From the NCBI GenBank assembly GCA_023382675.1, contig JAHDWN010000028.1, positions 1-64,000 on the forward strand: a DNA stretch of 64,000 nucleotides, read 5' to 3'. A program made the position numbers and the translations under genes. This stretch comes from Anaerolineae bacterium. Its GTDB lineage: Bacteria > Chloroflexota > Anaerolineae > Aggregatilineales > Phototrophicaceae. Numbering within the stretch: position 1 is the first letter of the stretch; each line of letters opens with the position of its first letter. Shown one piece after another: positions 44,043-51,212 of this stretch. The notes under the pieces are model-generated. The model was not told the DNA's origin. It saw nothing but the letters and a program-made list of their open reading frames with translations, and ran no database searches.

Positions 44043-45185
44043 TCATCCTCGATCTCCAACCGTATCCTGGTTCTTCACCCGGCCAACGAACTCGTCAAAC
44101 AGATAGAGTGAGTCGTGCGGGCCGGGCGAGGCTTCCGGGTGATATTGCACGCTGAACGCACCAAGATCGACATGACGCAGGCCTTCGATGGTGTTGTCGT
44201 TGAGATTGACGTGTGTGACCTCCGCGCCATGCAGATCGCTGTCGGCAGTGACAGCGAAACCGTGGTTGTGTGCACTGATCTCGACCACGCCGGTGAGGAG
44301 ATTCTTGACCGGCTGGTTGCCGCCGCGATGGCCGAAGCGCATCTTTTCGGTCTTGCCACCGAGCGCAAGCGCGAGAATCTGGTGTCCGAGACAGATGCCG
44401 AAAACCGGCGTCTTGCCAAGCAAATCGCGCACGCTGTCGATCAGATAGGTGACGGCGGCGGGATCACCGGGGCCATTGCTGAGAAAAACACCGGCAGGTT
44501 TCAGCGCCAGCACGTCGGCGGCAGGGGTGCGCGCCGGCACAATTGTCACTCGCAAGCCACGGTCGGTCATCATGCGCAGGATATTGCGTTTAATGCCCGT
44601 GTCATAGGCGACGATCAGCGGCCCCTGCGGATCATAATGCTGCTGCGGATACCAGGCGACGTTGCTCGTCTCCGTCCAGTTGTAGATTTCGGCGCAGGTC
44701 ACGTCATCAACGAGGTTCGCGCCGCTCATATCCGGGGCACTGCGCGCCAGTTCGACCAGTGCTGCGGCATCCGCAGCCGCCTCACCGTGGGCGATGGCGG
44801 CACGCATCGCGCCTTTTTCGCGGATGTGGCGGACGAGCGCGCGAGTGGCGACGCCGCTCAAGCCGATAATGCCCTGATCGCGCAGATACTCGTAGAGATC
44901 GATCTGGCTGCGCCAGTTGCTGACGACCGGGCTTAAAGCGCGGACGACAAACCCCGCCACCCAGACGCGTTCAGATTCGACATCCTCAGGGTTAATCCCG
45001 GTGTTGCCGACATGCGGCACGGTCATCGTCACGATCTGTTTGTGATACGACGGATCGGTAAGGATTTCCTGGTAGCCGGTCATCGAAGTATTAAAGACGA
45101 TCTCGCCGGTCTGCGTGCCTTCCGCGCCGAAGCCCAGGCCCGCGAACGTTCGCCCATCTTCGAGTGCTAACAAGCCTGGTTTCAC
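44043..45185 (-). CDS. carA: Carbamoyl-phosphate synthase small subunit
   Basis: Glutamine amidotransferase subunit supplying ammonia to CarB. 380 residues from a GTG (AGGAG 10 bases upstream). N-terminal CPSase domain ([37 protein letters not shown]) and class-I glutaminase with nucleophile [22 protein letters not shown] and [11 protein letters not shown] (His/Glu). Complete. Follows argJ after 71 bases that hold a REP-like palindrome. Confidence 0.97.
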
Positions 45186-45256: not shown

Positions 45257-46453
45257 CTAACTGCGGTAGTGGCCGTTGATCGAGACGTAATCGTGGCTGA
45301 GGTCGCACGTCCAGACGACGGCATGGCCTTTGCCCTGGCCGCAGTCCAGCGTCACGTAGATGGAAGGTTCATGCACAATCGCGGTCGCCCGTTCTTCGGA
45401 ATAATCGGTCGGCAGGCCGTCGGCAAAGAGCAACAGCTCGCGCCGTTCGGTGTCACCGCCCGCCATCCACAGCTTCATCTGCTTCGGATCGAGCGTCACG
45501 CCCGACCGCCCTGCCGCCATCATGATCCGTCCCCAGTTGGCATCGCCGCCATAGAAAGCGGTCTTGACCAGCGGCGACGTGGCGATGGTGTTGGCGATGG
45601 CTTTCGCGGACGCGTCGCTCTCCGCGCCGAACACCTGGATGGTGATGAACTTGGTCGCGCCTTCGCCATCCCGCACGACCCCCTGTGCCAGCTTGCGGCA
45701 GACATCTACTAACGGCTGCGCGATCTCCCCACCGGTCGCCTTGCCCGTGGACAGCAGCAGAACCGTGTCGTTGGTGCTGGTGTCGCCATCGACCGAGATG
45801 CAGTTGAAGCTTTTGTCACACGCCTTCTGGAGCGTGGGCAAAATGGCGGCTTCTTCCAACGCAGCATCGGTAACAACAATGCCGAGCATGGTCGCCATGT
45901 TGGGGGCGATCATGCCCGCGCCTTTGGCGATGCCTGCGACCGTGAATTGATCGTCCTGTTTCAACGATGCGATCTTGGGGCGCGTGTCGGTGGTCATGAT
46001 GGCTTCGGCTGTGCGCTGCCAGGCCTCGCGCCCGCCGTCCAGCTTTTCGGCGGCGAGTTCGATGCCGCGCTTGATCTTGTCCATCGGCAGCTGCGTGCCG
46101 ATGACACCCGTAGACATGACCAGCACTTCATCTTCCGCGCAGCCAACCTTCTCCGCCACCCAACGCGCCATCTGCAACGCATTGTCGATGCCCTGCTGCC
46201 CGGTGCAGGCGTTGGCACACTTGGTGTTGACGGCGACAGCGCGGTAGCCTGTCCGCTTCTTCTCAAGGCGCTCCATGTCTACGAGCACATGCGCAGATTT
46301 CACCTGATTGGTCGTGAACACCCCGGCGGCGGTGCAGGGAGTGTCACTCACGAGCAGAGCAAAATCGAGCGCCACGTCATCTTTGAGACCGGCGTGGACG
46401 CCTGCCACTTTGAAGCCAGGCACCCCGTCGATATGAGGCAATACGTCCGTCAT
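45257..46453 (-). CDS. argJ: Glutamate N-acetyltransferase / ornithine acetyltransferase ArgJ
   Basis: Transfers acetyl from N-acetylornithine to glutamate, making the arginine pathway cyclic. 398 residues, Ntn-hydrolase-like; APNMATMLGIVVTDA contains the ATML autocleavage site, whose Thr becomes the nucleophile of the beta chain. VNTKCANACTGQQG and CISVDGDTSTNDTVLLLSTG are typical, and the C-terminus NGHYRS is conserved. No separate argA or argE is present in the window, in line with an ArgJ-based cycle. ATGA overlap with argD. Confidence 0.96.
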   Translation of the reverse strand: MTDVLPHIDGVPGFKVAGVHAGLKDDVALDFALLVSDTPCTAAGVFTTNQVKSAHVLVDMERLEKKRTGYRAVAVNTKCANACTGQQGIDNALQMARWVAEKVGCAEDEVLVMSTGVIGTQLPMDKIKRGIELAAEKLDGGREAWQRTAEAIMTTDTRPKIASLKQDDQFTVAGIAKGAGMIAPNMATMLGIVVTDAALEEAAILPTLQKACDKSFNCISVDGDTSTNDTVLLLSTGKATGGEIAQPLVDVCRKLAQGVVRDGEGATKFITIQVFGAESDASAKAIANTIATSPLVKTAFYGGDANWGRIMMAAGRSGVTLDPKQMKLWMAGGDTERRELLLFADGLPTDYSEERATAIVHEPSIYVTLDCGQGKGHAVVWTCDLSHDYVSINGHYRS

Positions 46454-47688
46454 GAGCGTGCGCCTCCTGTGGCGGCGAGAATGTCGGTCAAACGCTCGAT
46501 CAGCACATCGACGTGCTGCTTTTCAACGATCAGCGGCGGTACGAAGCGAATCACACTCGGCCCGGCGTTGACCATCAACAGGCCATGTTGATAACCCGCC
46601 TCGATGACCGGCGCAACATCGACGGTCAGCTCCAACCCCACCATCAAGCCGCGCCCACGCACTTCCTTAATCAGCGGGCTGTTGATCTCCTGGAGGCGTT
46701 CTTTGAGATAATCGCCGACTTCGCGCACGTGCGCCATGAACTCCGGCTGGCTGATGCGGTCGAAGACGTAGTGCGCCACGCTGGTTATGAACGGGCCGCC
46801 GGCGTAGGTCGTGCCGTGATCGCCGGGGTGGATATGATCGGCGACTGCGTTGGTCGTGAGGATCGCGCCGATGGGCATCCCCGCGCCGAGCGCCTTCGCC
46901 AGCACTTGCACATCCGGCGTGACGCCGCTCGGCTCGCTCGACCAGAGCGTACCCGTGCGCCCCATGCCTGCCTGCACCTCATCAAAGATCAGTAATGCCC
47001 CGCGCTCGTCGCAGAAGCGGCGCAGCGCCTGGAGGAATGCATCCGTCGCCGGGTTGATGCCCCCTTCGCCCTGAATCGGTTCGGCGATGACCGCCGCCGT
47101 GCGCTCGGTGATGGCGGCGTCGGCGCTGGCGATGTCGTTGTACTCGGCGACGACGACACCGGGCATGAGCGGCGAAAACGGCTTCTGATATTTCTCCTTG
47201 GGTGTCAGCGAGAGCGACCCCAGCGTGCGGCCATGGAACGCGCCGGAGAAGCAAACGATCTCCTTGCGCTCGCTGTCGCCACGGTCGTAATGATATTTGC
47301 GGACGAACTTGATCGCGCCTTCGTTGGCTTCCGTGCCGCTGTTGGTGAAGAAGACCCGATCCGCAAACGATTTTTCACAGATGGCTGCGGCCAGCCGCGC
47401 CTGGGCTTCGGTGTAATACAAGTTACTCGTATGCAGCAGCCCGGACGCCGCCGTCTGGATCGCATTGACCATCCCCGGTTCGGCATAGCCCAGGGCATTG
47501 ACGGCGATGCCCGCCACCCAATCCAGATAGGCTTTGCCCTCAGCATCGTAGACCGTCACACCTTCGCCGCGCACGAGCACAAACGGCGGGCGCTTGTAGG
47601 ATTGAACGATGTGTGCGTTCTCCAAACCGATAATTTCATCTGTCAAATTCAGATCGATCACGTGGCCCATCCTCTCTGTGATGCTCAT
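46450..47688 (-). CDS. argD: Acetylornithine aminotransferase
   Basis: PLP-dependent class-III aminotransferase forming N-acetylornithine. 412 residues: FFTNSGTEANEGAIKFVRKY phosphate-binding loop, FDEVQAGMGRTG with the cofactor Asp, and QVLAKALGAGMPIGA with the Schiff-base Lys. ATG overlaps the HNH gene stop by four bases; an internal ATG six codons in has GAGAGG directly beside it and is less likely. Confidence 0.95.
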   Translation of the reverse strand: MSITERMGHVIDLNLTDEIIGLENAHIVQSYKRPPFVLVRGEGVTVYDAEGKAYLDWVAGIAVNALGYAEPGMVNAIQTAASGLLHTSNLYYTEAQARLAAAICEKSFADRVFFTNSGTEANEGAIKFVRKYHYDRGDSERKEIVCFSGAFHGRTLGSLSLTPKEKYQKPFSPLMPGVVVAEYNDIASADAAITERTAAVIAEPIQGEGGINPATDAFLQALRRFCDERGALLIFDEVQAGMGRTGTLWSSEPSGVTPDVQVLAKALGAGMPIGAILTTNAVADHIHPGDHGTTYAGGPFITSVAHYVFDRISQPEFMAHVREVGDYLKERLQEINSPLIKEVRGRGLMVGLELTVDVAPVIEAGYQHGLLMVNAGPSVIRFVPPLIVEKQHVDVLIERLTDILAATGGARS

Positions 47689-48272
47689 ACCGCACTGCGC
47701 GCATGGCGCTGATAGTCCGACCAGCGCAGTGTGAGTTCAATCCATTCATCGGTCGCTTTTTCGGCGGCGACCCAACCCTGCTTGACTTCGTAGCGGATGG
47801 TCGCCCGGCAGTATTCAAGCACAAGCTCGACCGCCGCTGGATCAACCCGCTCGCTGTACATGATGTGATTAACCAGTTTGCGACTATATTCACTTCCGTT
47901 GACCAGCGCGTTGTACATCAGGTGCTGCAGCTCATGGCAGTTAGCGCACAACGCCACCGTGCGCTCGCTTTCGCCATGCGTCGCCACATCATAGACGTGA
48001 TGGCGGTGCGAAGCGGGATAGCCACAGGCGGCACAGGCGGTCGTGCGCTCCTGATAGGTCGGGCGGCGGCGCTGGCGGTCACGGCGATACTTGCGCAGGC
48101 GATAAAAATCGACCCAGTGCGTCAGGATATTCATCCGTTCGTCGGCCTGCGTGTGCGACTTCAGACTCGCCTGAAACGCCTCGACGATTTCCGCCGCTTC
48201 CTCGCCGTGATACAGCTCACCGATCAGCAGCACCAGCTCGTCATATAACGCTTGCTCTGATGGCTCGCCCAT
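47685..48272 (-). CDS. HNH-like zinc-binding protein inside the arg operon
   Basis: 195 residues. Central HNH/zinc module: CAACGYPASHRHHVYD (Cys80, Cys83, His91/His92) and VALCANCHELQH (Cys109, Cys112, His113). Around it are long helical flanks, basic before (RLRKYRRDRQRRR, about 58-70) and acidic after. The metal-finger order fits an HNH nuclease, but DNA binding without cleavage is equally possible. Coupled to argD by ATGA overlap, 44 bases after argB. No obvious metabolic role; not a known arginine gene. Confidence 0.82.
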   Translation of the reverse strand: MGEPSEQALYDELVLLIGELYHGEEAAEIVEAFQASLKSHTQADERMNILTHWVDFYRLRKYRRDRQRRRPTYQERTTACAACGYPASHRHHVYDVATHGESERTVALCANCHELQHLMYNALVNGSEYSRKLVNHIMYSERVDPAAVELVLEYCRATIRYEVKQGWVAAEKATDEWIELTLRWSDYQRHARSAV

Positions 48273-48316: not shown

Positions 48317-49063
48317 CTACGTGCGCTGGAATACCGTTCCTCCCCCTATGCGCAGTCCCTCCAGGTTCGTGATAACCGCCTGTGTAACCCCATGATCCAG
48401 GGCAGACAACGCCGTCCGCACCTTCGGGATCATGCCGCCAAAGATCGTACCATCTTTGACCAGCGCTTCACACGTCGAAGGTGTCAGGGTTGGCACGACT
48501 GCATCATCAACCAGGACGCCGGGCACGTTGGTCAGGAAGACGACGCGCTCGGCATCCACCGCCGCCGCCACCGCGCCCGCGACGTGATCCGCATTGACGT
48601 TGTAGGCGCTGTCACTGCCGAGGCAGATGGGCGCGATCACAGGCGTGACGCCATTTGCCAGCAGGTCGCGCAGCACGTCGCCGCGCACGCTCGCCACCTC
48701 GCCCGTGAAACCCATGTCCTGCTGCGGGTGCTGCATCTGGGTCGCGCGCACCAAGCCGCGATCCACACCGCTCATGCCGAGCGCCTCGACGCCAGCATTG
48801 ACGAGCAGGCGCGTCAGCCGCGTATTGACGACGCCGCAGAGCACCATCTCGACCAGGGCGAGCGAGGCTGCGTCGGTGATGCGCAGGCCGTCGGCGTAAC
48901 GCGGCTCGATGCCCATCTTCTGCTGTAACTCACTAATTTCGCGTCCGCCGCCATGAACGACAATCACGGGCTGAGTCATCGCCGCGATGGTTTGTGCGAA
49001 ATCGGCCAGAAACTGGGCATCATCCAATTCATGTCCACTGACTTTGACGACCACCGACTGCAT
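48317..49063 (-). CDS. argB: Acetylglutamate kinase
   Basis: Phosphorylates N-acetylglutamate, second step of arginine synthesis. 248 residues from the ATG at 49063 (GAGGAG 8 bases upstream). Amino-acid kinase fold: VVVKVSGHEL, VHGGGREISELQQKMGIEPRY, GLRITDAASLALVEMVL and the ATP-site VVFLTNVPGVL. The usual KxGG loop starts KVSGHE, slightly divergent from KLGGSA. It lacks the N-terminal helix linked to arginine-inhibited hexamers, so feedback inhibition by arginine may be weak; that is inference. Confidence 0.93.
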   Translation of the reverse strand: MQSVVVKVSGHELDDAQFLADFAQTIAAMTQPVIVVHGGGREISELQQKMGIEPRYADGLRITDAASLALVEMVLCGVVNTRLTRLLVNAGVEALGMSGVDRGLVRATQMQHPQQDMGFTGEVASVRGDVLRDLLANGVTPVIAPICLGSDSAYNVNADHVAGAVAAAVDAERVVFLTNVPGVLVDDAVVPTLTPSTCEALVKDGTIFGGMIPKVRTALSALDHGVTQAVITNLEGLRIGGGTVFQRT

Positions 49064-49078
49064 TAAGATCACTCCTCA

Positions 49079-49921
49079 TCAAAGTGCGATTAAGGCCACG
49101 GCAACCAAGCCCAGGACGATGCCGATCAACTGCCAGCGGCCAATGCGCTCGCCGCGTAACAGGAATGCCCATGTGATCGTGACAGCCGGATAGAGCGATG
49201 ACACCACCCCGGCGATGTCCAACCGGCCTGAGCGTTCAGCCAACGAGAAAAACATGTTCCCCACGACATCGAGCGTGCCCGCCAGCAGAATCGCGCCCCA
49301 CATCGCCAGGGATGATGGGCGAGCGATGCGGCGCGTCCCCAGCGCGATTGTGAGCATGAGCGTCGATGATGCGAGGCGAGCGACCGCCAGCGGCAAAAAG
49401 ACAGCGTCGCTCTCGAGCCGCGCGATCATAATGAAGAAGACGCCAAAGCCCAGGCCAGCGCCGAGCGCCAGCGCCAGGCCGCTAGTTGCAAACGCGCCTG
49501 ATGCCGACACGAGCAGGACACTGACAAAGGCCAGCCCAAACCCGATCAGCGTCACATCGCCGGGCAAGCCGGCGGTGGTAATGCCAACGATGACCGGCAG
49601 TGACGTGGCGATGATCGACGTGACCGGCGCGACGACGCCCGCGCGGCCAGTCGCCAGCGCGCGGTAGAGCATCGCCAGCGCAATCCCGCCCGCTGCGCCC
49701 GCGACCAATCCCCATATCCAGTCGTTCGGCTCGATGCCGACTTCACCGTTGATGCGCGCCAATATCAGCAAGAGCACCAGACCCACCGGGTGCGAAATCG
49801 CCAGCACCGACGCGACCGACATCCGGCGTGAGGCGACACTCCCGCTGAAGTCGCCGCTGCCCCAGGAGGCCGCCGCCAGCAAGCTGAAGAATACGACCGA
49901 GAGTTCAGGTGCGAACGCCAC
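49079..49921 (-). CDS. EamA/DMT-family transporter between argC and argB
   Basis: About 280 residues from a GTG at 49921 (GAGG 5 bases upstream), 11 bases after argC. About ten TM helices in two EamA repeats: FFSLLAAASWGSGDFSGS opens the first; GAGLGFGVFFIMIAR begins the second; the last helix is LIGIVLGLVAVALIAL. Such proteins export amino acids or other metabolites; position in the arginine operon suggests an overflow exporter for an arginine-pathway product, not demonstrated. Confidence 0.88.
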   Translation of the reverse strand: MAFAPELSVVFFSLLAAASWGSGDFSGSVASRRMSVASVLAISHPVGLVLLLILARINGEVGIEPNDWIWGLVAGAAGGIALAMLYRALATGRAGVVAPVTSIIATSLPVIVGITTAGLPGDVTLIGFGLAFVSVLLVSASGAFATSGLALALGAGLGFGVFFIMIARLESDAVFLPLAVARLASSTLMLTIALGTRRIARPSSLAMWGAILLAGTLDVVGNMFFSLAERSGRLDIAGVVSSLYPAVTITWAFLLRGERIGRWQLIGIVLGLVAVALIAL

Positions 49922-49932
49922 TATCGCCTCGC

Positions 49933-50937
49933 TTAGAGTAAAGCCGTCGTTTCTGGGAAGCCGAACATGAGATTGAAACACTGCACGGCCTGCCCGCTCG
50001 CGCCTTTGCGCAAATTATCGGTCACGCTGGTGACGTGCAGATATTCCGGCGTGACGGGCGTGAGGCTGATGGCTGCGCCGTTGGTGCGCACGACGTGGCG
50101 CAGAGTCGCCTGCGCTTTTGGCGGCAGCACCTTGACCAGCGGCTCTTGCGAGTAGGTCTCTTCGTAGAGTTCCTGCGCCTGATCGCTCGTGTGCCCGTCG
50201 CCCATTTCGACGTAGATGCTCGCCATCAGGCCACGATCCACCGGCAGCAGATGCGGCGTGAAGATGAGCGTGCCAACCGAATCGTCGAGCTTGTGGATTT
50301 CCTGCTCGATTTCGCCGACATGGCGATGCGAGCGCCCCGGATTGTAGGGTGAGAAGTTGCCAAAGACCTCGACAAAATGGGTGTTGGGTTTGGGTTCGCG
50401 CCCAGCCCCGCTGACGCCGGATTTCGCATCGACGATGATCGGGCGGCCAGGCTTGAGCCAGCCGTGTTTGAGCAGTGGGTACAGCCCCAGGAGCGTGGTC
50501 GTCGGGTAGCAGCCCGGCGCGGCAACGACACGCTGACCAGCAATCTGTGCGCGGTGGATCTCAGGCAAGCCATAGGGCGCGTCGAGCATGTCCGGGTAGG
50601 GGTGTACGTGCCCGTACCACTGCTGATACGCTTCGGCGCTGTCCAGGCGCAAGTCTGCCGAGAGATCGATGACCGCGACGCCAGCATCCACCGCTCGACG
50701 AGCGACCTCAGCAGAAACGCCATGGGGCAGTGCCAGGAAAACGACATCGACATCCGCCAGCGAAGCCTCGTCCGTCTTGACATAGGTCAGTGCTGTGTGT
50801 TCGACTGGCTGACCGGCGTAGGTATTCGAGACCGCAAAAACGAGTTCGACGTAGGGATGCCGCGCCAGAATCTCGACCAGATCCAGGCCAGCGTAACCCG
50901 ACGCACCGTATACCCCAACCCGCAGTGTTTGATGCAT
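49933..50937 (-). CDS. argC: N-acetyl-gamma-glutamyl-phosphate reductase
   Basis: NADPH-dependent third step of arginine synthesis. 334 residues from the ATG at 50937 (AGGAG 8 bases upstream; the upstream TTG has none). VGVYGASGYAGLDLVEIL is the Rossmann loop, AAPGCYPTTTLLGLYPLL holds the catalytic Cys, and RSHRHVGEIEQEI the His-rich active-site stretch. First structural gene of the arg-car run; preceded by the attenuator-like leader. Confidence 0.96.
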   Translation of the reverse strand: MHQTLRVGVYGASGYAGLDLVEILARHPYVELVFAVSNTYAGQPVEHTALTYVKTDEASLADVDVVFLALPHGVSAEVARRAVDAGVAVIDLSADLRLDSAEAYQQWYGHVHPYPDMLDAPYGLPEIHRAQIAGQRVVAAPGCYPTTTLLGLYPLLKHGWLKPGRPIIVDAKSGVSGAGREPKPNTHFVEVFGNFSPYNPGRSHRHVGEIEQEIHKLDDSVGTLIFTPHLLPVDRGLMASIYVEMGDGHTSDQAQELYEETYSQEPLVKVLPPKAQATLRHVVRTNGAAISLTPVTPEYLHVTSVTDNLRKGASGQAVQCFNLMFGFPETTALL

Positions 50938-50978: not shown

Positions 50979-51009
50979 AAAAAAAACCCCTGCCGGTCGA
51001 GGTCAGGGG
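50979..51009 (-). terminator. Attenuator terminator in argC leader
   Basis: Minus strand: CCCCTG (51009-51004), 11-base loop, CAGGGG (50992-50987), then eight T (50986-50979). No gene ends upstream on this strand, so it lies within the argC transcript leader, 42 bases before the argC ATG. GAGGTC (51072-51067) could instead pair with GACCTC (51004-50999), taking over one stem base and the loop, a possible antiterminator. Confidence 0.85.
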
Positions 51010-51045
51010 GTGGGTCTGCGTCAATGATGCCCGGCTGTCGTGCCG

Positions 51046-51147
51046 CTAACGCAAAACTCCCAACCAGACCTCTCGTGTCTGTGGGCGGCGGCTACGGCGA
51101 CGACGCAATGCCGTTGGTTGATTGCACGACAGCGACAAATCACTCAC
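51046..51147 (-). CDS. Arginine-rich leader peptide of arg operon (putative)
   Basis: 33-codon ORF (GTG start at 51147, TAG at 51048-51046) in the argC leader. Its middle is ALRRRRSRRPQTRE: consecutive codons CGT CGT CGC CGT AGC CGC CGC, then CGA, and a final CGT before the stop; eight Arg codons in 33. The start overlaps (GTGA) the stop of a 11-codon ORF beginning ATG 51179, almost at the predicted transcription start. Ribosome site GAGTGAG is weak. The Arg run lies about 75-100 bases before the terminator, typical of attenuation control. Interpretation is inference. Confidence 0.6.
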   Translation of the reverse strand: MSDLSLSCNQPTALRRRRSRRPQTREVWLGVLR

Positions 51148-51183
51148 GATTTTCTCACTCGGAATGTGGGCAACGTCATCGTG

Positions 51184-51212
51184 AGTTTATGTTTTTCCGG
51201 CCTGATTGTCAA
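51184..51212 (-). promoter_or_regulatory. Promoter of arg-car operon
   Basis: Minus strand TTGACA (51212-51207), exact 17-base spacer, TAAACT (51189-51184). Predicted start near 51177, giving a leader of about 240 bases before argC. Consensus -35 box; -10 matches four of six. Confidence 0.8.

Follow-up and report, generated by a model that had tools for sequence, protein, structure and literature searches.

The window, as we call the whole stretch of 64,000 nucleotides that was analyzed, carries on its minus strand a string of genes headed by argC (49936..50937, with the ATG at 50937), which matched TIGR01850 with 360.6 bits against a cut-off of 233.6. On the same strand follow an EamA-family transporter gene (49079..49981; PF00892), argB, encoding acetylglutamate kinase (48317..49072; TIGR00761), a small gene encoding a protein of 195 aa (47685..48272), argD, encoding acetylornithine transaminase (46450..47688; TIGR00707), argJ (45257..46453; NF003802/TIGR00120) and carA, encoding the small subunit of carbamoyl-phosphate synthase (44043..45185; TIGR01368). 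The profile matches of argC, argB, argD, argJ and carA indicate that the genes behind the leader described below make arginine. No family could be assigned to the small gene between argB and argD, which had no Pfam match and a single NCBIfam match far under its cut-off; its product has two CxxC motifs and several histidines. The nearest ArgC protein, with 90% identity, is encoded in an Anaerolineae MAG. A second argC-like gene of this genome (G000:C4:90568-91593, minus strand, locus L192) shows 35% identity and has no leader, and matches with a similar identity were obtained in many relatives.

Upstream of argC, also on the minus strand, a sigma-70-like promoter was read from the sequence at 51184..51212, with TTGACA (51212-51207) as the -35 element and TAAACT (51189-51184) as the -10 element, separated by a 17-nt spacer. 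It is followed by an ORF of 33 codons with a GTG start (51046..51147), the translation of which, MSDLSLSCNQPTALRRRRSRRPQTREVWLGVLR, had no Pfam match. The codon run CGT CGT CGC CGT AGC CGC CGC (51085..51105), encoding RRRRSRR, places six of the eight Arg residues of this peptide within seven codons; given that Arg makes up 219 of 3745 codons in 11 genes of the window, the chance of finding at least six Arg in a given 7-codon window is about 2.7e-7. An intrinsic terminator (50979..51009; -13.0 kcal/mol) follows, consisting of the hairpin CCCCTG-11 nt-CAGGGG (51009-50987) and eight T (50986-50979).

Three competing helices were recognized in this leader. Strand 1 (CCCACAGAC, 51077..51085) lies where the Arg run ends, and its pairing with strand 2 (GAGGTCTGGTTGGG, 51059..51072) in the minimum-energy fold and in the RNAalifold consensus gives helix 1:2. 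Strand 2 is also the 5' half of an antiterminator (helix 2:3), a role assigned from co-variation and a family-permutation test, and its partner, strand 3 (CCCACCCCCTGACCTC, 50999..51014), placed by co-variation and permutation, serves both as the 3' half of the antiterminator and as the 5' arm of the terminator (helix 3:4). Within 2:3, GAGGTC (51072-51067) is able to pair with GACCTC (51004-50999). The promoter, the GTG-initiated ORF, the 6-bp GC stem with its 8-T tract and the alternative GAGGTC/GACCTC pairing had been pointed out in the initial annotation and were all found in place, and strands 2 and 3 proved to co-vary among relatives. Its run of seven Arg codons stood as a cluster broken by one Ser, with a count of six Arg in seven codons, not seven. 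The assignment of the terminator to the argC leader was also upheld, since the gene upstream of the leader, encoding an ABC transporter, is divergent.

The conservation of this layout was analyzed in 61 relatives, 53 of which gave an ArgC match (genomes with only the paralogue included). The same-order set drawn from these 53 genomes comprised 50 argC upstream regions, one per genome; G017 entered by an N-terminal piece, G016 and G027 had only distant matches and the split gene of G025 was omitted. An Arg-rich leader, a terminator and a matching antiterminator were present before argC in 46 of the 50 regions. Five of these leaders (L006, L024, L040, L045 and L048) were placed or adjusted by hand, and the weakest, L006 and L050, have three Arg each. 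The four regions without such a leader (L020, L023, L032 and L034) were counted in the 50 and excluded from the 46-row alignment. The leader peptide 5' of the Arg run is unrelated in sequence between loci, so that the alignment suggested in the initial annotation gave the expected picture of an Arg-rich leader and a terminator that persist while the 5' half of the peptide drifts. Lack of conservation of the Arg run, which was to refute the proposal, can be discarded because the leader is kept in nearly all same-order regions.

The layout was also scored by a conjunction test that demanded an ORF with four or more Arg among eight codons and a hairpin of -12 kcal/mol or lower followed by T4, 35-115 nt apart. 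This test was passed by 44 of the 50 same-order argC regions, against 5 of 1000 shuffles, and by all eight further named Anaerolineae loci (0/160 shuffles), which were kept after removal of 12 duplicates; L114 was also removed as a duplicate. In the other orders of the class only 30 of 73 argC regions passed (8/1460 shuffles); this set started from 75 of the 78 genomes with a match (G076, G150 and G197 were left out), and L154 and L167 were removed for having less than 200 nt upstream. No pass was obtained among 41 of 43 distant argC regions (3/820 shuffles; L107 and L110 lacked upstream DNA) or among five argC-paralogue regions (0/100 shuffles). No region was dominated by N.

The phylum sample comprised 63 of the 120 non-class genomes with a match, none of which was dropped. 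Five of the 63 loci passed the conjunction test, four of them belonging to family f77; the fifth, L344, may be a chance pass. The remaining two f77 loci have the same peptide and hairpin as judged by eye. The f77 leader (RLRRPRTNEVRW) is similar to that of the window (RRSRRPQTREVW), and this likeness of the core suggests that the leader is very old or that the operon was transferred. Loci L273-L278 (f77, from another class of Chloroflexota) carry the closely similar leader core RRPRTNEVRW. One record, JAHHHY010000001.1 (L052), bears the title Pleurocapsa minor, a cyanobacterial name, and its argC upstream region is the same as that of the same-genus relative L005; the title looks wrong, or is the name of the culture.

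The coding signal of the leader ORF was examined together with its promoter and start codon. Of the 46 leaders, 36 have the pattern TTGAC-N17-19-TANNNT ahead of the Arg run, compared to 33 of 4600 shuffles, and the start-codon tests cover these 36 promoter-bearing leaders only. Between the predicted start site and the Arg run, an open ATG occurred in the Arg frame of 34 leaders and in the other two frames of 1/36 and 0/36, with a shuffle background of 623/3600. When GTG and TTG were also counted the Arg frame was open in 36/36, against 9 and 14 in the other frames (shuffles 1436/3600). All 36 leaders have an in-frame start, which is ATG in 34 and GTG in two, those of the window and of L002, the relative nearest to it, and the predicted starts leave 5-21 codons ahead of the Arg run. 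An SD-like motif was detected in only 4 of the 36, so that the window, with its weak ribosome site, is no exception but typical. The main weakness flagged in the initial annotation, a GTG start with a poor ribosome site, is not peculiar to this leader. Arg positions are kept among relatives while the codons exchange between CGT and CGC. By these measures the leader ORF looks like a gene; translation itself was not observed. CGT made up 121 of 226 leader Arg codons in the 46 genomes versus 31 of the 219 Arg codons in 11 genes taken only from the window, and CGG (1/226) and AGR (5/226) were rare in the leaders.

The three helices were compared for co-variation in the 46-row alignment, which misplaces the rows of family f4 in strand 3. 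The antiterminator 2:3 showed changes on both sides at 6 of 7 pairs, with 83.5% of cells paired as against 20.5-45.9% when the strands were slid by 1-3 columns, and its covariation score was matched by none of 500 shuffles. In the terminator 3:4, both-side changes were seen at 7 of 10 pairs and 78.8% of cells were paired; the covariation score was matched by 1/500 shuffles, and the number of pair types was no better than in shuffles (259/500). Helix 1:2 had both-side changes at 3 of 4 pairs and 78.8% of cells paired, with a pair count matched by 146/500 shuffles. Sliding it by +1 to +3 or by -3 gave more both-side cells than the unslid helix, and 1:2 is the least supported of the three because most of its slid versions show equal or more both-side cells. 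In several loci the antiterminator continues apically with TTTGCG/CGCAAA; this extension was excluded from the counts.

Strands 2 and 3 were also permuted between seven families without use of an alignment. The native pairing was the most stable of all 5040 permutations, with a mean of -21.98 kcal/mol compared to -16.84 kcal/mol over the permutations, and self-pairing beat the average foreign-family pairing in 43 of 46 loci. In 153 of 1270 comparisons, pairing with a foreign strand 3 equalled or exceeded the locus' own pairing in stability, and families f3 and f4 each paired slightly better with one foreign family than with themselves. When permutations were made within sets, none of 5000 was as stable as the native arrangement for the 44 loci of the order or for the 30 loci of the class, and 1 of 5000 was for the 10 argG loci described below. 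The stretch ahead of the Arg run paired poorly with strand 3. As far as sequence alone can tell, a mutually exclusive antiterminator sharing the 5' arm of the terminator, as attenuation demands, is met by the predicted helices, and so is a putative intrinsic terminator between the leader ORF and the first structural gene.

Minimum-energy and alternative folds, suggested in the initial annotation as a further check, were computed for these leaders. The unconstrained minimum-energy fold of the window leader is 1:2 plus 3:4, the terminating state, and the same helices were predicted by RNAalifold from 22 leaders with no structure supplied; the alternative helix 2:3 has its support from co-variation. 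A co-transcriptional model was then used in which the RNA ends before strand 4 and is masked up to 12 nt beyond the Arg codon occupied by the ribosome. With the ribosome on the best Arg codon P(2:3) exceeded 0.5 in 45 of 46 loci, and the 46-locus mean (over codons) was 0.78 with a stalled ribosome compared to 0.52 with none. In the window P(2:3) barely shifted, being 0.65 without a ribosome and 0.67 with a stalled one. The value for a ribosome at the stop codon is zero by construction in this model, since the RNA 5' of the ribosome is removed. At full equilibrium, on the other hand, the terminator won in most loci despite a stalled ribosome, and P(terminator) fell below 0.2 at the best stall in only 15 of 46 loci; in the window it was 0.99 for the free RNA and stayed at 0.74-0.99 with the ribosome on any of the first four Arg codons, dropping only on the last two, to 0.27 and 0.14. 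The switch was reproduced in most loci by the co-transcriptional model and in a minority by equilibrium folding. Attenuator switches are usually kinetic, and the switch considered here, if real, would be largely kinetic.

We are highly confident that the leader is a classical ribosome-mediated transcription attenuator with arginyl-tRNA as the signal sensed, and that it controls argC and, in all probability, the genes that follow on the same strand (the EamA-family gene, argB, the small ORF, argD, argJ and carA). The trp/his/leu type of layout, proposed for arginine in the initial annotation, is thereby supported by a conserved leader, a terminator, a co-varying antiterminator and an upstream promoter. 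In the mechanism inferred, a ribosome would translate the leader ORF behind RNA polymerase. When Arg-tRNA is plentiful, it would read past the Arg codons and go on across strand 2 in the direction of the stop codon; with strand 2 covered or re-paired with strand 1, 3:4 could form and end transcription at the T tract. A shortage of Arg-tRNA would make the ribosome stall in the Arg run and cover strand 1, leaving strand 2 free to pair with the emerging strand 3, so that the terminator would come too late and argC would be transcribed. The stop codon of the window leader lies about 20 nt past the strand-2 core, which means that the ribosome would translate through strand 2; in f3 and f4 the stop is within or right after strand 2. 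In the absence of expression data, ribosome stalling, the termination switch and its direction, the single transcript and a rise in readthrough with uncharged tRNA remain inferences.

The Arg-rich peptide could instead act as a nascent-peptide sensor, in which ribosome arrest is brought about by the peptide together with free arginine or by its positive charge within the exit tunnel. There are precedents in the fungal arginine attenuator peptide and in SpeFL. The fungal peptide is encoded by an arginine-responsive uORF and causes eukaryotic translational arrest by free arginine plus the nascent peptide; the arginine response is a feature in common with the argC leader, where it is inferred, and the fungal system has no terminator. 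In the family of the window the peptide is conserved past the Arg run as RRPxTxEVxxGxLR (24 loci anchored on RRP....V), as such a sensor would have it, but this conserved tail also encodes strands 1 and 2, and in other families the tail changes to unrelated amino acids without loss of the pairing. Moreover, arrest by abundant arginine would favor the antiterminator, which we infer to be the wrong sign for a biosynthetic operon. We therefore consider a nascent-peptide sensor improbable.

Still less likely is control by a protein or small molecule, through an ArgR operator, a T-box or a riboswitch, with the ORF being incidental. ArgR/AhrC is a common form of control of arginine operons, and the initial annotation had named it as the usual arginine regulator. 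The C-terminal domain of ArgR (PF02863) was not detected in any of 61 relatives or 199 class genomes, the controls giving 8/14, and was present in 30 of 161 phylum genomes. Partial matches to the N-terminal domain (PF01316) were found in 5 of 61 genomes, four of them above the cut-off, and none in this genome. The six f77 genomes are not among the 30 with ArgR, and the leader test was failed by all nine argC regions that were read from genomes with ArgR. Arginine T-boxes are cited in the accessible part of one survey (PMC1262725), but a Rfam search of the leader gave no match at E<=5, whether T-box or riboswitch, and the ORF carries a coding signal of its own. Finally, a chance ORF in a GC-rich leader, with a terminator that is unregulated or belongs to the upstream gene, is hardly tenable, for although GC-rich DNA often contains Arg-rich ORFs by chance (windows with 4-5 Arg occurred among the distant argC regions), the upstream ABC transporter gene is divergent and the conservation, frame and co-variation tests speak against it.

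Leader-peptide attenuation by Arg codons, our preferred reading, has to be compared with known systems. Leader-peptide attenuation is textbook knowledge for several amino acids, with the trp, his, leu, ilv, thr and phe leaders as examples. The argC leader is like these classical attenuators in having a promoter, a short ORF with cognate codons, mutually exclusive helices and an intrinsic terminator before the first biosynthetic gene, and differs from them in that arginine would be sensed and the host belongs to the Chloroflexota; the position of the window's stop codon beyond the core of strand 2 is a further difference. The mechanism of his attenuation is described in the available portion of PMC9413887. 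In Salmonella orf34/speF, as far as the consulted sections of PMC6386406 describe it, ribosomes pause at consecutive Arg codons of the leader ORF in low arginine. Pausing at Arg codons is common to both, inferred in the case of argC, but according to the same sections orf34/speF has an ornithine decarboxylase gene as target and two consecutive Arg codons, and it works by Rho-dependent termination, RBS sequestration and RNase G, with no intrinsic terminator before arginine biosynthesis genes. A leader of the SpeFL/orf34 type was rejected for the window, where the gene downstream is argC and not ornithine decarboxylase. The Pseudomonas carA leader shares a leader peptide and a proposed attenuation before an arginine/pyrimidine gene; the excerpts of PMC4997734 at hand link attenuation with pyrimidines, ascribe the response to arginine to transcription, and mention no Arg-codon run.

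According to the accessible text of a 2010 survey (PMC2965389), leader-peptide attenuators were found only in Proteobacteria, Actinobacteria and, newly, Firmicutes; neither "arginine" nor "Chloroflex" is mentioned in its main text in the form available. A 2005 survey (PMC1262725), in the available part, observed no conservation of RNA structure upstream of actinobacterial arginine operons. Our literature search revealed no Arg-codon attenuator of arginine biosynthesis, with subscription journals mostly uncovered, so a prior mention is possible. If the attenuator is real, it extends attenuation to a new amino acid, arginine, and a new phylum, Chloroflexota; it would also provide a genome-encoded sensor of arginine starvation and, in genomes without detectable ArgR, a natural test of the replacement of a repressor by an RNA switch.

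A search of this genome with a covariance model based on 22 leaders, one of them that of the window, detected one strong site, before argC (E 2.3e-22), the next having E 0.3. Of 41 genomes, 28 had their best match immediately upstream of argC; in the others it was before argG (G041), next to neighbours that were not checked (five genomes) or missing at E<=1 (seven genomes). The conjunction test was also applied to other arginine genes. An Arg-rich leader with a terminator was present before argG in 10 of 23 relatives, against 0 of 460 shuffles (23 of 26 loci were used, one being partial and two not argG); no leader was found at argG of the window's own genome. As further targets, argF (1/24 vs 2/480 shuffles; 24 of 26 loci used) and argH (1/8 vs 2/160 shuffles) were unconvincing. 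The argH test used 8 of the 23 strongest loci, a restriction made because argH mostly sits behind argG.

It seems likely that in the Anaerolineae and part of another class ArgR was lost or never present, and that arginine biosynthesis there forms an attenuation regulon with leaders at the argC operon and often at argG, representing an old arginine-specific branch of attenuators. The argG leaders were those of L198, L199, L201, L202, L203, L205, L207, L209, L211 and L216, and examples of the argG leader peptides are CLRIRRRRTQ and RLRRRIRR.
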